DNA of 64,000 nt, from NCBI GenBank assembly GCA_039680605.1, contig JBDKTA010000067.1:1-64000 (forward strand). The letters run 5' to 3'. A program made the translations under genes and the position numbers. This DNA is from Planctomycetaceae bacterium (GTDB lineage Bacteria > Planctomycetota > Phycisphaerae > SM23-33). Of the stretch, positions 10,090 to 59,060 are shown one piece after another; position 1 is the first letter of the stretch; each line of letters starts with the position of its first letter. The notes under the pieces are model-generated. The model did no database searches. It was given only the letters and a program-made list of their open reading frames with translations, and was not told the DNA's origin.

Positions 10090-10250
10090 TCGTGTCGCGG
10101 GCGTCTCGCCCGCGCGTGACGAGAGCATCTTGCCCTCGTCTTGTTTCTACGCGGGCGAGACGCCCGCGGCACGCGCGAACTGGATGTCCGCGACACGGCA
10201 AAGCACGGCCGGGACGACCGCGGAACTCACGGGCGGGACGCCCGTGCTAC
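10090..10250. repeat. Cluster of GGGCGAGACGCCC-type palindromes
   Basis: Successive units include GCGGGCGTCTCGCCCGC (about 10097-10113), GAGAGCATCTTGCCCTC, GCGGGCGAGACGCCCGC (10151-10167) and CACGGGCGGGACGCCCGTG (10229-10247). The last unit supplies the final codons and stop of the methyltransferase gene 10227-10913. Confidence 0.8.
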
Positions 10251-15648: not shown

Positions 15649-15725
15649 ACGGGCATCCTGCCCGTGAGCAGCATGGGCGTCTTGCCCATGCTCCCCGTCT
15701 TTTGAGCACGGGCGAACGCCCGTGT
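15649..15725. repeat. Palindromic repeats between convergent genes
   Basis: Three units in a row: GCACGGGCATCCTGCCCGTG (15649-15668), GCATGGGCGTCTTGCCCATGC (about 15671-15691) and GCACGGGCGAACGCCCGTG (15706-15724). They fill the space between the GGDEF stop and the activase stop and could also act as a bidirectional terminator. Confidence 0.8.
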
Positions 15726-17805: not shown

Positions 17806-18519
17806 TCAATCCTGCGAGGGCAAGATGCCCTCGCCACGCGCGGGCGAGACGCCCGCGACACGTTCGATGAGCCTCTTGATGATCTCCGGCGTCAGCTCGC
17901 GCAGCGAATCGACGACCAAGCCGGCGCCGCGGGCCAGTTCCTCGCGCGGCGCGGTGCCGGTGATGGCAATGGCGGCCATGCCCGCCCTCCGGGCGGCCTC
18001 GATTCCGGCCGGGGCGTCCTCGACCACCGCACAGCGGCACGGCGGCAAGGCGAGTTTATCTGCGGCCTTGAGGAAGACCTCCGGGTCCGGCTTGCCGTGC
18101 GTGATGTCCTCGCGCGTGACGGTGACGTTGATGTGGCGGCTTCCGGGGAGGTTCTCTCGCACCACCTGGACGTTTCCCGGCGGCCCGGACGAACCGATGG
18201 CCATGACGAACCCCGCCGCGTGCAAGGCCTCGATCAGCTCGTGCGCGCCATCCATTTCAGGGAACTTTTCCGCCAGAATCTGCCGGTAAAGATGCTCCTT
18301 CTCGTGATCCCACTGGGTGACTTGCTCGGCGCTGGTGACGACGGAACCCCACAGGCGATGGATGATGTCGCGGCTGGTGCGGCCGAACGTGGCGGCGAAC
18401 TGCGGCTCGGTCATGTCCTGCCCGTGCCGGCGGGCCATCTGCCGCCAGGACTCGAAATGCGCCTGGTAGCTGTCGACGAGCACGCCGTCCATGTCGAAAA
18501 TCACCGCGTAGTCGCTCAT
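17806..18519 (-). CDS. HAD-superfamily phosphatase, beta-phosphoglucomutase-like
   Basis: 237 aa from ATG 18519. Motif I FDMDGVLVDS (nucleophile Asp9, acid/base Asp11), motif II IGSSGPPG, motif III Lys in HGKPDPEVF, motif IV VVEDAPAGIEAA are intact, and the cap sequence places it in the beta-PGM/phosphatase subfamily. It acts on small phosphorylated sugars or similar metabolites; the substrate is not evident. The last 17 or so residues come from a palindromic repeat and probably form a disordered tail. Confidence 0.85.
   Translation of the reverse strand: MSDYAVIFDMDGVLVDSYQAHFESWRQMARRHGQDMTEPQFAATFGRTSRDIIHRLWGSVVTSAEQVTQWDHEKEHLYRQILAEKFPEMDGAHELIEALHAAGFVMAIGSSGPPGNVQVVRENLPGSRHINVTVTREDITHGKPDPEVFLKAADKLALPPCRCAVVEDAPAGIEAARRAGMAAIAITGTAPREELARGAGLVVDSLRELTPEIIKRLIERVAGVSPARGEGILPSQD
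17812..17864. repeat. Palindromic repeats at the end of the HAD gene
   Basis: GCGAGGGCAAGATGCCCTCGC (17815-17835) and GCGGGCGAGACGCCCGC (17839-17855). Read on the minus strand they encode the last residues (VAGVSPARGEGILPSQD) and lead to the stop of the HAD phosphatase. Confidence 0.8.
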
Positions 18520-22037: not shown

Positions 22038-22958
22038 TTGGCGTATCGATGGGCCATTCGGTTGGCCATTGAGGGCGATCTCCGCTTCATCTCGCATCAC
22101 GACTGCATGCGTGCCGTCGAGCGGGTCGCCGCAAGGGCGCAACTGCCTGTTCGCAGTACACAAGGGTTTAACCCAAGGCCGATTTTTTCTCTGGCCCTGC
22201 CCCGCCCGGTGGCTGTCGCTACGCGCGCGGACCTGCTGGTGCTGACGCTGGACGAACCGGTCGAGCCGGATGACCTCACCGCCCGCCTCAACGCCGCCGC
22301 CCCGCTGGGCATGCACTTCGATCAGCCCCGCCCCCTGCAAGGCAAAGCCTGCCCCCAACCCCAGCGCATTGACTATGAACTGGATTTGCGCGAGCGTAGC
22401 ATGGGCGTCCCGCCCATGCATGAAAAACAAATCCAAGAGCATGGGCGAGACGCCCATGCCACCCCAGACCACGGGCAAGATGCCCGTGGAACGCACGGGC
22501 GAGACGCCCGTGCTACGGCTGACGCCCAGGCGCGCCTCGCGGCTGTGTCGGCTAGAATTGCCGAGCTTCGCTCCGCCCATGCCTGGACCGTGCTGCGGAA
22601 AACTTCCGTCAAGCACGGCCGCGGATGGCGCGAAACCCCTATTGATTTGAAACCACTTGTCGGCCGGTTGGAACTGGTTGACGCAACCTTATTGATGACG
22701 CTGCAGCCGGCTGGGGCCTTGTGGCCGCGACCCGGCGAGGTGCTGGAACTGCTGGGATTGGACGGTCGAGTCGACCTGGCCAACCTGGTGCGAACGGACG
22801 TGGAGTTCATGTTCGACCGTGTCGCGGACGTCTCGTCCGCGCATAGCGAGGGCGTCTCGCCCTCGACGGACGAACAAGACGCGGACGAGACGCCTGCGAC
22901 ACGTTCGGAGCCCGGCAATGGAGCGTCGCGCGGCGACGAAGATCGCCGCAGAGAGTAA
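22038..22958 (+). CDS. TIGR03936 / DUF2344 family protein with palindromic coding inserts
   Basis: 306 aa from TTG 22038, with GGAAAGG 12 bases upstream. The family opening is clear (YRWAIRLAIEGDLRFISHHDCMRAVERVAARAQLPVRSTQGFNPRPIFSLALP). Members occur next to RNase E/G or fused to radical SAM proteins and are thought to act in RNA modification or ribosome-linked processes. Residues of about 120-160 come from four successive palindromes (HGRDAHAT-like peptides) and residues of about 261-290 from three more, all in frame. The body between them (AHAWTVLRKTSVKHGRGWRETPIDLKPLV) is conserved family sequence. RNase E/G follows after 10 bases. Confidence 0.8.
   Translation: MAYRWAIRLAIEGDLRFISHHDCMRAVERVAARAQLPVRSTQGFNPRPIFSLALPRPVAVATRADLLVLTLDEPVEPDDLTARLNAAAPLGMHFDQPRPLQGKACPQPQRIDYELDLRERSMGVPPMHEKQIQEHGRDAHATPDHGQDARGTHGRDARATADAQARLAAVSARIAELRSAHAWTVLRKTSVKHGRGWRETPIDLKPLVGRLELVDATLLMTLQPAGALWPRPGEVLELLGLDGRVDLANLVRTDVEFMFDRVADVSSAHSEGVSPSTDEQDADETPATRSEPGNGASRGDEDRRRE
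22397..22517. repeat. Four palindromes inside the TIGR03936 gene
   Basis: Units: GCATGGGCGTCCCGCCCATGC (22399-22419), GCATGGGCGAGACGCCCATGC (22439-22459), CACGGGCAAGATGCCCGTG (22470-22488) and CACGGGCGAGACGCCCGTG (22494-22512). The host frame stays open across all of them. Confidence 0.85.
22817..22908. repeat. Three palindromes in the 3' part of the TIGR03936 gene
   Basis: GCGGACGTCTCGTCCGC, CGAGGGCGTCTCGCCCTCG and GCGGACGAGACGCCTGC follow each other, flanked by GTGTCGCGG and CTGCGACAC. The gene stays open and ends 50 bases later. Confidence 0.8.
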
Positions 22959-32194: not shown

Positions 32195-32318
32195 TTCGTG
32201 GCATGGGCGTCTCGCCCATGCGTGGCATGGCCGTCTCGGCCATGCATCTTCGCTGATCCGCCAAGAGCAGGGGCGAGACGCCCATGCCACTCACGGGCGG
32301 GACGCCCGTGCTACGGCT
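32195..32318. repeat. Cluster of GGGCGAGACGCCC-type palindromes between ROK and trpE genes
   Basis: GCATGGGCGTCTCGCCCATGC, GCATGGCCGTCTCGGCCATGC, GGGGCGAGACGCCC and CACGGGCGGGACGCCCGTG occur in succession. No gene in this stretch. Confidence 0.85.
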
Positions 32319-54400: not shown

Positions 54401-56886
54401 CATTCATCGCCGCCACGGTGGTGCGCGCGGTCGACCCCGAAAGCGACAAATGGCTCCCCATGCGCGCCATGGGGATGGCGCGGCTGGAGCTGGATCACTC
54501 GCCGCGGAAGATGCCCCTGACCATCGCGGCGCCGCTGTCGGCCCTGCCCGGAGCCAAGGTTCGCGTCACGGTCACGGCGCCCCCGTCTACGGACGCGTCG
54601 CGCCCGGCGATGGTTCACCTCTGGGCGGTGGATGAGGGCATCCTGCTGACCTCGGCGTTCGTTACGCCCGATCCGATGGAGCGATTCTTCGTCCACTGCA
54701 AGCTGGACGTCATCAGCTCGGACATCTTCGCCGACCTTCTGCCCGACCACGCGCGGCCCAAGACCATGGCCCGCATCGGCGCCGACGCCTCTGAGCGCCA
54801 CCGCCGCCGCACCGAGGCCGTACCCGTCCGGGTCCGCAAATCCGCCGTCGTGTGGCGACAAGCCGTGCCCGCCGGACCCGACGGCGTCGTGACCGCCGAT
54901 CTGGACCTGCCCGACCTGTCCACGGAGATGCGCCTGATGGCCGTCGCCGTCGACGGCGATCTCTACGGAACAGCCCAAACGCCCCTGAAAGTCACTTCGC
55001 CTCTGATGGTCGAAACAAGCTGGCCGCGATTCGTCTCCCCCGGCGACACCTTCTCCGTTCCGGTCAAGGTCTTCAACACCACAGACGGCGCCCTCAACGT
55101 GCAGGCGGCCGTCGAGATATCCGGACCCGTCACGCTCACCGGCGCCACCGCTGCCCCTGCTGCAGCGGGCGCCCCGCGAAAGTGGGCGATCGGCCAACTG
55201 GCACTGCCGCCCCGATCGGCAAAGACAATCTGGCTCGAGGGCGTCGCTGCTCAGGCCGGTCAGGTCACCGCCCGAGCGATGGTGCAGGCCGAGTCGGGCC
55301 TGGCCGCCCACGACGAGGTGCTTTTCACCTGCCGCCCGCCGGCCACGCTTGAGACCGTCACGCGATTGACCGCCGTCCAGGCGGGCAAGCCCCAGCGCGT
55401 CGCCATCGACAACTCGGCAATGCTGCCGGGCACGGCCCGGACGGTCGTCAGTCTCAGCGGCCGCAGCAGCGTGCAGTTGCGCCAGGCTGTGGACGAGCTG
55501 ATCGATTATCCGTACGGCTGCGTCGAGCAGACGACCAGCCGCCTCTACGCGATGCTGTATGCCCCGGCGCTACTGGCCGGCGACGACTCGCGGGCGGTCA
55601 ATGCGCGGGCGATGATCGACTCGGGCGTGGCGAGGCTCTGGTCGATGCAGACGCGCGACGGCGGCCTGGCGTACTGGCCCGGCGGCGGGGACTCGAGCCC
55701 GTGGGGCACGGCATACGCGGCGGCGTTTCTCGCGCGGGCGCGGCAGGCGGGCGTCGCCATCGACAAGCGATTCTCCGACGAACTGGTGCGATACCTGCAG
55801 ACGCGCCTGCGCCGGGCGTACACCGAGGACGTCTCGGCCAACGACCAGGCGCTGTTCTGCTACGTGCTGGCGGCGTTTGCCTCGCCCGACCTGAGCTCGA
55901 TGAACCGCCTCCAGGAGCGACTGGACTTGCTCGACCTCGGCGGCCGCGCCGATCTCGCGGCGGCATGGCTGGCCGTGGGGCGAAAGGATCGCGCCCGCGC
56001 CGCCCTCCCGGACGAGACGATCACGCAGACGATCACCGCGACCACCGGCGGGCGCATTACGTCGCAGACGTCGGCCCAGGCCAACCTGCTGGGCGTGATG
56101 CTGGATCTCGACGCCGCCCACCCCTGGGCCCCGCTGCTGGCCGACCGCCTCAGCAAGGCTCGCACGCAAGGCTGCTGGAGCTCAACCGTCGAGAACGCCG
56201 CCTGCGTGGCGGCACTGGCACGATACCAGGCCACCGTCACGGACGAGACCGCTTTCTCCGGCACCGCAGAGTGGACCGGAGGCAAGACCGCCTTCGCCCA
56301 CTCCCACACGACGTCGGCCGACGTCGGCGCCGCCGAGACGATCCAACTGACCAGTACCGGCAGCGGCACCATCTTCGTGACCATGACGACGCAGGGTCTT
56401 GCCAAGAAGCCGCCCGCTCCCTACGACCGCCAGCTTGAGGTGCGCCGCACGTGGGCCGACAGCAAGGGCAAGGCGATCGACCCGGCCAAGGTTCGCGTGG
56501 GCGATACTGTGCGGGTCAGCGTCACCTGCCGCACGCTCGGCGATGCCGACTTTTCGTTGGAAAACGTGGCCGTCGTCGATGCCCTTCCCGGCGGCTTCGA
56601 GGTCGAGAATCCTGTGCTGAAGACTTCGGCCGCGGCGGTACAGGAGGGCGACATCGCCCCGCCGGCCCGGGCCGAATCGCCTACCCCGCCGGCAGACCAC
56701 GTCGAGTTCCGCGACGACCGCGTGTTGATCTTCACCGGCGTGGCCGGCAAGCCCCGCACTTTCTCCTACACCCTGCGGGCGATCACGGCCGGCACGTTCA
56801 CCCTGCCGCCGGTGCAGGCCTCGTGCATGTACGACGGCGGCTGCGCCAGCCTTCACGGCGGAGGCGCGGTGGAGATCGCCAAATGA
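51469..56886 (+). CDS. Bacterial alpha-2-macroglobulin with thioester motif
   Basis: 1805 aa from ATG 51469 with GGAG 9 bases before (earlier in-frame starts exist at 51421 and 51460). N-terminal hydrophobic signal/anchor (FWVVAGIFLVINLAALAWI), then successive MG beta domains (for example LYAERGVYRPGETIHLTGIIRD), a bait-like region, and the thioester sequence YGCVEQTTS with Cys1351, inside a helical TED domain. The C-terminus is the receptor-binding-like domain. Such proteins trap proteases in the periplasm and are coupled with PBP1C for envelope repair and defence; pbpC follows in a 4-base overlap here. Confidence 0.93.
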   Translation: MTWARSRFWVVAGIFLVINLAALAWIHHAASRAKGSLRILRVTPLTQLDAADRLAIVFDEPVVKSAALTAPLEASPFEIQPPIDGRWQWASFDRLEFFPNQRIPAGRRFKLVPSPMAERVLGGRLSGVSTFDLTSGALAVINCEVLRADREAVDIEIEFNQKVDPRHLVDRLTLRDPHGTVLKPQCLVQEPALKLPLRVQRPQEGWLTVQIDAGLTGAGAQVAMDAPFSTSVKAAWQFVLQSASAGRPALEKDIDITLKFSQTLDKTQPLPSLNVIPEVKDLRVSWHSTGYDSTINALCLSAAFLPGTKYRIDVPAGLRSTGAAVAAKQTVYVEVPHRSPSLNMPNTRGVLSPQGNMLLELETVNVPAVKIKTARVHNNNLVPHLVSYYRQWSRPQVEKTVPLDTPADQPTTVGLDLASLTGRTPGIYTVEVHRVDSRWDYERGVIAVTDLGITAKQVAQGYVVWVTSLRTGQPVADAKVTAVSRTNQVLGAGATSAEGLTTINMVHNGPDGPAFVITAELGEDMGYLQPQDRPWVVEGVDQTGRPAPQGYDVMLYAERGVYRPGETIHLTGIIRDLQGQTPPPFPLSLKVIRPDGHRATEISLRFDANSQGVFHADYTPPADGQTGPYTCNVTLPGADTVLGSAAPFVESFVPVRMEVKAKADRDVYHGDQPIQISASARYLFGQAAADLPVKALGKLTLGRFTSKRHPRYVFGDAKASRSVDLEEVSQALDANGQAALTLHCAAGEAAPRPKGWWKGSASVTVTEPGGRSVSTNVPLVQDTAGRYVGLEPPASNMVRSDSTVSLEWVQLNGDDTPAAAGDLTYTLSRIEYDWTVEAVGRTRAWKTVERLIEAKQGRLTAGQPHGQLTLAFPQAGHYRLSVVDATSGSETVLYLYAAWAHEDTGGFTVNRPGMLEVVLDKAKYVPGSTAQVLVRSPFPGTMLLTVEAQNVLEHRVVQLKGKSVQIDLPIAADLRGGAFIAATVVRAVDPESDKWLPMRAMGMARLELDHSPRKMPLTIAAPLSALPGAKVRVTVTAPPSTDASRPAMVHLWAVDEGILLTSAFVTPDPMERFFVHCKLDVISSDIFADLLPDHARPKTMARIGADASERHRRRTEAVPVRVRKSAVVWRQAVPAGPDGVVTADLDLPDLSTEMRLMAVAVDGDLYGTAQTPLKVTSPLMVETSWPRFVSPGDTFSVPVKVFNTTDGALNVQAAVEISGPVTLTGATAAPAAAGAPRKWAIGQLALPPRSAKTIWLEGVAAQAGQVTARAMVQAESGLAAHDEVLFTCRPPATLETVTRLTAVQAGKPQRVAIDNSAMLPGTARTVVSLSGRSSVQLRQAVDELIDYPYGCVEQTTSRLYAMLYAPALLAGDDSRAVNARAMIDSGVARLWSMQTRDGGLAYWPGGGDSSPWGTAYAAAFLARARQAGVAIDKRFSDELVRYLQTRLRRAYTEDVSANDQALFCYVLAAFASPDLSSMNRLQERLDLLDLGGRADLAAAWLAVGRKDRARAALPDETITQTITATTGGRITSQTSAQANLLGVMLDLDAAHPWAPLLADRLSKARTQGCWSSTVENAACVAALARYQATVTDETAFSGTAEWTGGKTAFAHSHTTSADVGAAETIQLTSTGSGTIFVTMTTQGLAKKPPAPYDRQLEVRRTWADSKGKAIDPAKVRVGDTVRVSVTCRTLGDADFSLENVAVVDALPGGFEVENPVLKTSAAAVQEGDIAPPARAESPTPPADHVEFRDDRVLIFTGVAGKPRTFSYTLRAITAGTFTLPPVQASCMYDGGCASLHGGGAVEIAK

Positions 56887-59060
56887 CGCTTCGGGGCATC
56901 CGTCGCTGGTTGAGGCGGGTTCTGGTCGCGACGACCGCCGCGGCGGCGGTCTCCCTCGCGGTGCTGGCGGTGCTCTGGCATGCGTATCCGTTCCCGATGG
57001 AGCGCCTCGATGCTCTGCCGGCCAGCCCCGTCGTCACCGACCGCGGGGGCACATGCCTGCTGCAACTGACAGCCGCCGACGAGCAGTGGCGATTCCCCGT
57101 GCCGCTGGAACGCGTGTCGCCGTGGCTGCTCAAGGCCACCATCGCGGCCGAGGACAAGCGGTTCTACGAGCACCCTGGCGTGGACTCTGCGGCGGCGGCT
57201 CGGGCCTTGCTGCAGAACCTCAGCGCCGGCCGCACCGTTTCCGGGGCCAGCACGCTGACGATGCAGATCTGCCGCATGATGGACGCCCGCCCGCGGACAC
57301 TCTGGTCCAAGAGCGTCGAGGCGTTCCGCGCGGTGCAGTTGGAGTCGCGCCTGTCGAAGGCCGACGTGCTCTGCGCGTATCTCAACCGCGCGCCGTACGG
57401 GCGAAACTTCTGCGGCGTCGAGGCCGCCTCTCAGGCGTACTTCGGTTGCAGCGCCTCGCAGCTCAGCCTGGCCCAGTCGGCGCTGCTGGCAGGGCTGCCG
57501 CAGTCGCCGGCGCGGTTCCGCCCCGACCGCCGCCCCGCCGCGGCGATGGCGCGGCGTCAGTACGTGCTGGATCGCATGCTGGCGCTGGGCTACATCACGC
57601 CCGGAGAGTATCGCTGCGCCGCCGACGAACCGCTGGCGATTCGCTCGAGCGAACCGGACAGGTCGGCTTTGCATGCGGCACAGTTGGCGCTGTCGCAGCG
57701 GCCCGGCGGCGGTCGCACAACCATCGACCTGGCCCTGCAGCAGGAAGTCGTCCGCCTCGTGCGGGCCCACGTGCCTTCGCTGCCGCCGCAGTCGGACGTT
57801 TCGGTGGTGGTGATCGATCTGGCCGGGGGCGAGATCCGTTGCCTGGTCGGTTCGGCGGACCCAGACGATCCCAACGGCGGCCAGGTCTGCGGGGCCACCG
57901 CCTGGCGCAGCCCCGGGTCGGCGCTCAAGCCCTTCGTCTATGCGGCGGCGTTCGAGGCCGCCCGCGCCGACGCCAATACCCTCGTCTACGACGTGCCCAT
58001 CGAGCGCAGCGGCTGGGCGCCGCATAATTTCGACGGCACGTTTCGCGGCCCGGTCACCGTCGCCGCGGCCCTGCGCGACTCGCTCAACGTTCCGGCGATA
58101 CTCGTCGCCGAGCAGATGGGGATGGAGCGATGCGCGGGATTGATGACCGCGGCGGGCGTTGCGTTCCGCGACCGCCCCGCGCAAAACCTCGGCCTGGCGA
58201 TGGTCGTCGGCGGGGCCGAGGTGCGGCTGCTGGATCTGACAAACGCCTACGCCACGATCGGGCGAGGCGGCGTATATCGACCGGCGGTGCTGTTTGCGGA
58301 TTCAGGGGTCGGGGAGCATGGGCGAGACGCCCATGCCACAAAACCGGCCGGTGGCATGGCGACACCGGTTGTATCGGGGTCGCCATGGGCATGCCACAAG
58401 ACCGGGGAGCATGGGCGAGACGCCCATGCCACACAGACAGAGCATGGGCGAGACGCCCATGCCACACAAACGCGGGCCATGGATGCAAACGTCTGCGCGG
58501 CGCTGGACGCCATTCTCTCCACGCGCAACCGCTGCCCGGCTGGCATGGAAGACCGCCTCGGCGACGCGATTCCCTGGTTCATGTGGAAGACCGGTACCAG
58601 CAGCGGCCGGCGGGATGCCTGGGCGCTGGGGCACAACGGACGCTTCGCCGTCGGCGTCTGGGTCGGGCGATTCAGCGGCGGCGGCAGCGGCGGGTTCGTC
58701 GGGGCCCTGGCGGCCGAGGCGCTGCTGGCAACCATCTTCGACAGTCCGCTGGTGCGAAGCACCCGCCCCACCGCCGCGGCGCGGCCCTGGGTGGTCATGC
58801 ATCCGCTGGACAGGCCTGCCGAGGCGGCCGCTCCCGTACACATCGTCTATCCCGCCCAGGGGGCCACGTTCGTGACCATCGCCGGCCAAGCGGTCATCAA
58901 CGCGCGGGTCAACCAGGACCGAGAGCTTCACTGGTTCCTCGACTCGCACCTGCTGCCCCAGCGCCAGGCCCCGCGACTGACCTTGCCCGCCGGGCGGTAC
59001 GAGTTGCGATGCGTCACCGCCGAGGGGCAGGCCTCCGCCGTCACCTTTCACGTGCAATGA
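56883..59060 (+). CDS. pbpC: Penicillin-binding protein 1C with palindromic coding insert
   Basis: 725 aa, ATG overlapping the previous stop by 4 bases. N-terminal membrane helix; GT51 glycosyltransferase (TIAAEDKRFYEHPGVD, SGASTLTMQICRMM); transpeptidase motifs SxxK in SPGSALKPF, SxN in RDSLNVPA, KTG in WKTGTSSGRRDAW; C-terminal BiPBP-type beta domain. Between SxN and KTG about 50 residues, encoded by 58316-58465, come from palindromic repeats (three HGRDAHAT peptides and a GGMATPVVSGSPWACH piece). The flanking YRPAVLFADS and ANVCAALDAILS are conserved, so the insert probably forms a surface loop. Confidence 0.93.
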   Translation: MTLRGIRRWLRRVLVATTAAAAVSLAVLAVLWHAYPFPMERLDALPASPVVTDRGGTCLLQLTAADEQWRFPVPLERVSPWLLKATIAAEDKRFYEHPGVDSAAAARALLQNLSAGRTVSGASTLTMQICRMMDARPRTLWSKSVEAFRAVQLESRLSKADVLCAYLNRAPYGRNFCGVEAASQAYFGCSASQLSLAQSALLAGLPQSPARFRPDRRPAAAMARRQYVLDRMLALGYITPGEYRCAADEPLAIRSSEPDRSALHAAQLALSQRPGGGRTTIDLALQQEVVRLVRAHVPSLPPQSDVSVVVIDLAGGEIRCLVGSADPDDPNGGQVCGATAWRSPGSALKPFVYAAAFEAARADANTLVYDVPIERSGWAPHNFDGTFRGPVTVAAALRDSLNVPAILVAEQMGMERCAGLMTAAGVAFRDRPAQNLGLAMVVGGAEVRLLDLTNAYATIGRGGVYRPAVLFADSGVGEHGRDAHATKPAGGMATPVVSGSPWACHKTGEHGRDAHATQTEHGRDAHATQTRAMDANVCAALDAILSTRNRCPAGMEDRLGDAIPWFMWKTGTSSGRRDAWALGHNGRFAVGVWVGRFSGGGSGGFVGALAAEALLATIFDSPLVRSTRPTAAARPWVVMHPLDRPAEAAAPVHIVYPAQGATFVTIAGQAVINARVNQDRELHWFLDSHLLPQRQAPRLTLPAGRYELRCVTAEGQASAVTFHVQ
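58316..58465. repeat. Palindromic repeat array inside pbpC
   Basis: GCATGGGCGAGACGCCCATG at 58316, 58409 and 58442 (each followed by CCAC) plus one GGTGGCATGGCGACAC-type inverted repeat at 58351-58397. All three GCATGGG units are identical over 24 bases. The reading frame of pbpC stays open. Confidence 0.9.

Follow-up and report, generated by a model that had tools for sequence, protein, structure and literature searches.

The window analyzed here, a 64,000-nucleotide stretch of planctomycete DNA, contains a pbpC gene in which a small cluster of palindromic repeats is carried in frame between two motifs of the transpeptidase domain. The relevant features are the following.

56883..59060, plus strand: pbpC, encoding penicillin-binding protein 1C (725 aa) and carrying the repeat cluster (translation, NCBIfam, Pfam)
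57918..57929, plus strand: SxxK motif S346-A-L-K349 of the PbpC transpeptidase (translation; S346 and K349 invariant in the alignment)
58080..58088, plus strand: SxN motif S400-L-N402 (translation, alignment)
about 58305..58466: in-frame insert, PbpC residues ~475-528 (MAFFT alignment; split tblastn matches)
58316..58339, minus strand: REP copy 1, with its GTGG tag at the 58339 end, read as HGRDAHA in pbpC
58350..58397: degenerate inverted REP pair, GTGGCATGGCGACACC ... GGCATGCCAC, folding as one hairpin (z -4.4)
58409..58432, minus strand: REP copy 2
58442..58465, minus strand: REP copy 3, one 33-nt tandem period away from copy 2
58587..58595, plus strand: KTG motif K569-G571 (translation, alignment)

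The pbpC product passed the PBP_1c NCBIfam cut-off (550 bits vs 494) and contained the Pfam domains Transgly, Transpeptidase, and BiPBP_C. An earlier sequence-only reading had described three identical 24-nt units and a fourth element within an open frame with intact transpeptidase motifs, and our results agreed on each of these points. The three copies are exact GCATGGGCGAGACGCCCATGCCAC (24 nt each), the fourth element proved to be an imperfect, degenerate inverted pair (reading GTGGCATGGCGACACCGG...GGGGTCGCCATGGGCATGCCAC at about 58350-58397), the 725-aa frame contains SxxK, SxN, and KTG, and the key residues of all three motifs were invariant in an alignment with six orthologues. The clean gap that the same reading expected in related proteins was present, at ~50 aa, in 9 of 10 orthologues (MAFFT alignment). 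Similarly, tblastn of PbpC against relatives returned split matches (1-474 and 527-725, with the break at 474 and 527-530), and just 1-4 residues separated the two halves in the relatives. Intact motifs and the clean gap together uphold the view that a mobile palindrome has entered, in frame, a gene whose enzyme looks functional.

The tenth orthologue, from a Phycisphaerae bin (L089), has an unrelated insert of ~80 aa at the same PbpC position (L089:4312-4590), which suggests that the insertion site is simply tolerant. We considered this insert as another REP family and rejected that option because its hairpin-like piece is single copy in L089's own genome. In the PBP1a chain 3udf, the equivalent stretch (end of the second matched segment to KTG) is ~100 residues long, indicating that the fold varies in length in the insert region. 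No secondary structure was predicted for the insert in an AlphaFold model whose confidence (mean pLDDT 53.8; 21-24 in the insert) is too poor for placing it.

The minus-strand sequence of the unit, GTGGCATGGGCGTCTCGCCCATGC, combines a GTGG tag with a hairpin (9-bp stem, 3-nt loop; folding z of -5.9). Ten matches with <=3 mismatches were detected in the window, vs 0 in 100 shuffles; those outside pbpC are listed below.

15668..15691, plus strand: single REP with 3 mismatches
22396..22516: REP cluster of the same family, with units at 22396 (plus), 22439 (minus), and 22493 (minus)
32198..32290: REP cluster of the same family, with units at 32198 (plus), 32222 (plus), and 32267 (minus)

The 5.2-Mb source genome held 335 copies at <=3 mismatches (171 and 164 by strand), and the reversed pattern, used as a control, had 0 matches in that genome. 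The REP was present in 26 of the 60 genomes searched (source genome included), often with GTAG instead of GTGG in the relatives. Elsewhere in the window, divergent REP-like hairpins (GTGTCGCGGGCGTCTCGCCCGCGC and similar) occur at 10092-10250 and 17814-17861, and these possibly represent a second REP subfamily.

The repeat in pbpC is a member of the GTAG/GTRG REP superfamily, as indicated by a GTRG tetranucleotide adjoining a short palindrome, many dispersed and mainly intergenic copies, and a transposase (RAYT) gene with flanking REPs (C4:18784-20419). The insert is thus a small group of REP elements with GTRG tags, and the repeat family is not an unknown one, since its minus strand reads GTGG plus hairpin. 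The sequence-only reading took the identical copies as a sign of recent spread; copies 2 and 3 form a 33-nt tandem, so part of the identity comes from local duplication and not from three separate arrivals.

According to Di Nocera et al. 2013 (PMC3733652), the GTAG REP superfamily is known from Planctomycetes, a GTGG tag occurs in Opitutus terrae (GTAG-20), and intragenic GTAG REPs exist, more than half as dimers or groups. The pbpC REP resembles the members described there in its GTRG tag, short perfect stem, high copy number, mostly intergenic location, tandem or inverted groups, and occasional in-frame intragenic copies, but differs in having a family consensus of its own, here in a planctomycete. 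Given this 2013 account, the pbpC case alone is a further example of a known phenomenon. A Stenotrophomonas maltophilia REP is built in the same way (8-bp stem, 3-nt loop; PMC2817692, PMC6006769, PMC8266576).

To evaluate the relation of the repeats to coding DNA, we considered the unit, its arrays, and its positions. The unit contains a stop codon in none of its six frames and the tandem arrays have a 33-nt period, so that insertions of suitable length leave the host frame open. Array spacing modulo 3 was rejected as a sign of selection: intergenic arrays show the 33-nt period just as often (26 of 41 spacings where no flank is coding), which makes it a feature of the arrays themselves. Only 14 of 94 REP clusters were located inside a gene, vs 82% coding DNA, in 954 kb of sequence that comprised selected stretches surrounding exact REP copies and some additional ones; coding regions there were predicted with a codon model trained on the same 954 kb. 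The frame distribution of intragenic copies, put forward as a check by the sequence-only reading, was obtained for these 954 kb and showed that three of six frames are used. The 36 intragenic units were read as HGRDAHA (19), MGETPMP (13), or GMGVSPM (4), and the three Trp/Cys-rich frames were unused (p about 0.001, for 14 sites and a post hoc choice of three frames). Forward frames 1 and 2, avoided elsewhere, do occur in the left REP array of etfB, so the Trp/Cys-rich frames are not absolutely forbidden.

Genes with intragenic REPs encode a sulfatase, glycosidases, a KsgA-type methylase, a protein kinase, and a permease. In the protein kinase, in-frame REPs are found in the activation segment (DFGLAKLVSS...RHVMGTPRY; L115:12166-12289). 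The KsgA-type rRNA adenine dimethylase contains four in-frame REPs (L112:8043-8153), which occupy two reading frames with compensating spacings of 29 and 34 nt. The sequence-only reading had offered either a frame-aware insertion mechanism or strong selection afterwards. The former is not needed because the unit is stop-free in six frames, the period is shared with intergenic arrays, and genes are depleted of REPs; frame-blind insertion followed by selection is enough to explain the intragenic copies.

We identified 15 Y1_Tnp matches in the source genome, and within the stretches examined only one (C4:19310-19936) has REPs close by, on both sides and in inverted orientation. It is located inside an etfB gene.

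L111:4786-6420 (= G000:C4:18784-20419): EtfB frame of 545 aa with a complete REP-flanked RAYT and no stop

The order along the 545-aa frame is ETF profile 2-88, REPs, RAYT, REPs, and ETF profile 87-180; unlike the stand-alone gene that is usual, though not strictly defining, for this type of transposase, the RAYT lacks its own stop and the frame runs on into etfB. The RAYT scored 35.5 bits against Y1_Tnp PF01797 (cut-off 23) and 75.8 bits against NCBIfam REP_Tyr_transpos, where the cut-off is 80 and nested relatives scored 65.0-84.8. Its HUH and catalytic tyrosine residues (H122, H124, Y182) were invariant in 21 aligned rows. A second, uninterrupted etfB is present at G000:C50:116313-116825 (REPs nearby at C50:117090 and 117121), so the interrupted copy may be in decay.

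REPs were detected in 10 of 10 genomes with a close RAYT vs 16 of 50 without one (p = 7e-5). The base after the terminal C of exact REP copies was T in 82%, and the next position was C in 87%; characterized TnpAREP enzymes cut at C|T next to the REP (PMC8266576). These results suggest that the RAYT in etfB is likely the enzyme that moves these REPs. One of several REP-bearing relatives in which no close RAYT was detected, G035, has 122 copies, and its transposase may have been lost or left unassembled. The window also begins with a partial Y1 transposase gene (2-199; L044) that is cut by the contig start and closely resembles the copies on C3, C5, and C25.

The etfB case is not an isolated one. 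When 120 genomes were searched for the RAYT, each of the 13 closest relatives (E < 1e-60) shared its frame with host domains. The hosts of these 13 and of the next-closest matches were as follows.

ValRS: L184, L186, L188, L190-L194 (Pfam); L187 (its sequence)
DinG-type helicase: L189, L195, L196
DUF1156 protein: L185, L198, L202, L207
Eco57I-type enzyme: L199-L201
LeuRS: L217, L219, L222
IleRS: L220, L223
Glycine dehydrogenase (gcvP): L218
SNF2/PLD helicase: L221

DNA methylases are among the host proteins in relatives, and the named assembly Phycisphaerales bacterium UBA2266 carries a RAYT in ValRS. Stand-alone RAYTs are often found among the more distant relatives (L205, L206, L208-L214). 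The wider phylum, with a match in 59 of 294 genomes, also has many that stand alone; nesting is thus frequent but not universal. ValRS is an essential enzyme. Four genomes (G030, G015, G006, G038) gave one Val_tRNA-synt_C match each, in the RAYT-carrying frame. With completeness of 90-96%, a second valS could be missed, but this would need four misses. Nested RAYTs had dN of 0.26-0.48 with dS high or saturated, which, along with the invariant HUH and tyrosine residues, makes both RAYT and host parts look constrained. Judging from these sequences, the RAYT-carrying host proteins are probably made and active. We infer that they do not undergo protein splicing; Pfam scans of the nested RAYT proteins contained no HINT domain.

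With regard to the valS insertions, eight relatives share one site, after YYLRYPL and before VATTRPET. The same site is empty in the source genome's valS, valS matches run through it without a break in most of the 60 genomes searched, and G006 carries its RAYT elsewhere in valS. Identities of the RAYTs and of the host ValRS (the latter computed on 150 residues) had a Spearman correlation of -0.007 over 28 pairs; for example, G030 and G022, of one genus, are 91% identical in ValRS and 62% in their RAYTs. RAYTs from valS, dinG, and etfB were intermixed in a tree in which several forks are weakly supported. The dinG insertions also share a site, and in LeuRS and IleRS, RAYTs of other clades are located just before the matching Thr-rich editing-domain motif. 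A single ancient valS insertion inherited vertically is not supported given the uncorrelated identities, though the shared position then needs another explanation; our reading is that RAYTs arrived or were replaced repeatedly at structurally tolerant loops. Two further valS genes (G040:C4:797551-797648 and G049:C2:552182-552276) have ~31 extra residues at the RAYT position.

Taken as a mechanism, REPs would be spread by the REP-associated tyrosine (Y1/HUH) transposase, RAYT, acting on a single-stranded hairpin whose GTGG/GTAG foot and C|T step at the 3' base would form a RAYT-type cut site. The stop-free unit and 33-nt repeat would allow an insertion of suitable length to keep the host frame open, and selection would purge nearly all insertions except those in tolerant loops and mild-peptide frames. 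A REP-RAYT-REP element open from end to end could then be inherited inside EtfB, ValRS, LeuRS, IleRS, or DinG-type helicases, with the RAYT probably forming an extra domain within the host polypeptide. We hold with good confidence that the pbpC cluster was spread by a RAYT, that its frame was kept by the stop-free unit plus selection, and that whole REP-RAYT-REP elements nest in the same way. We are evenly divided on a broader proposal: that these RAYTs may constitute a class of mobile element living as an in-frame domain of essential enzymes (a catalytically intact-looking HUH domain within the sole ValRS), intein-like without splicing, sheltered, and re-inserted or replaced at one tolerant loop. 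Shelter would arise because frameshift or careless deletion of a RAYT in the sole ValRS would kill the host.

Guided insertion, in which RAYTs would home to conserved essential-gene sequences in the manner of inteins and the target site would keep the frame, would explain why eight relatives carry a RAYT at one valS position with RAYTs not tracking the host (rho about 0). It would also be in line with the shared dinG site, the empty valS site of the source genome, and the uninterrupted valS of most of the 60 genomes. We nonetheless regard it as rather unlikely, since the distantly related RAYTs at an apparently matching place in LeuRS and IleRS suit structural tolerance better than a single DNA target, REP clusters are scattered over many unrelated genes and lie mostly in intergenic DNA, and another insert occupies the same PbpC loop in L089. 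It is improbable that pbpC is a pseudogene or dispensable gene in which the insert reflects decay. PbpC was found in just 6 of the 60 genomes searched (source included), and it is non-essential in bacteria generally, but a 725-aa stop-free frame with good coding statistics on both flanks, intact motifs, ~50% identity to orthologues, and an insert length that is a multiple of three all argue against decay.

Recruitment of the translated repeats for a host function (as a linker, a regulatory loop, or an mRNA element) could account for the use of three of six frames in genes and for peptides that are alike across proteins. However, the hosts are unrelated, the unit number is variable, the orthologue gap is clean, and the frame bias is accounted for by avoidance of Trp/Cys-rich frames, so we give recruitment very little weight. 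Even less credible is that the nested RAYTs are assembly or gene-calling artefacts. Most of the genomes are draft metagenome bins, and an earlier survey (PMC6006769) excluded over-long TnpA proteins, treating them as fusions or faulty annotation. Against this, the frames were read straight from DNA, host domains flank the RAYT in the same frame, the pattern recurs across many genera, the dinG case of G080 occurs in a single-contig 7.2-Mb genome, and a valS case occurs in the named assembly UBA2266.

Spread of REPs and whole REP-RAYT-REP elements by RAYT, with selection keeping the frame, can be compared with several known systems. Rickettsia palindromic elements (RPEs) are likewise palindromic mobile repeats translated within host proteins; their sequences are probably different. 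We know of no transposase nested with RPEs. The likeness to RPEs that the sequence-only reading had drawn is apt, as the 2013 REP survey places RPE-4 and RPE-6 with CGTC-tagged REPs (PMC3733652). REPtrons share with the etfB element a Y1/HUH transposase with inverted flanking REPs, and in-frame REP insertions inside tnpAREP are known (subclass 2.4) (PMC2817692, PMC6006769, PMC8266576). The etfB element differs in that the whole REP-RAYT-REP is in frame within a host protein gene. Like inteins, nested RAYTs are in-frame mobile coding elements of conserved enzymes that recur at the same sites and do not track the host, and such in-frame recurrence at conserved sites of essential enzymes was found here. 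They differ from inteins in their REP flanks, in an HUH transposase instead of a homing endonuclease, and in having no HINT domain in Pfam scans, so the likeness is one of lifestyle only. The available text of PMC3733652 reports no transposases nested in host enzymes. Searches of open-access literature turned up no description of RAYTs embedded in host enzymes.

Y1 transposases of surprising length were left out of a 2018 survey (PMC6006769), which regarded them as fusions or misannotations; earlier surveys would have lost RAYT-host proteins in this way. Our results show that no frame-aware machine is required for a palindrome to become part of coding DNA: a unit open in six frames plus selection is enough. 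They lead to the prediction of large tRNA synthetases that have a DNA-cutting domain built in. For the long maintenance of REP/RAYT systems in bacteria, our findings suggest one persistence strategy, in which the transposase is welded into essential proteins.
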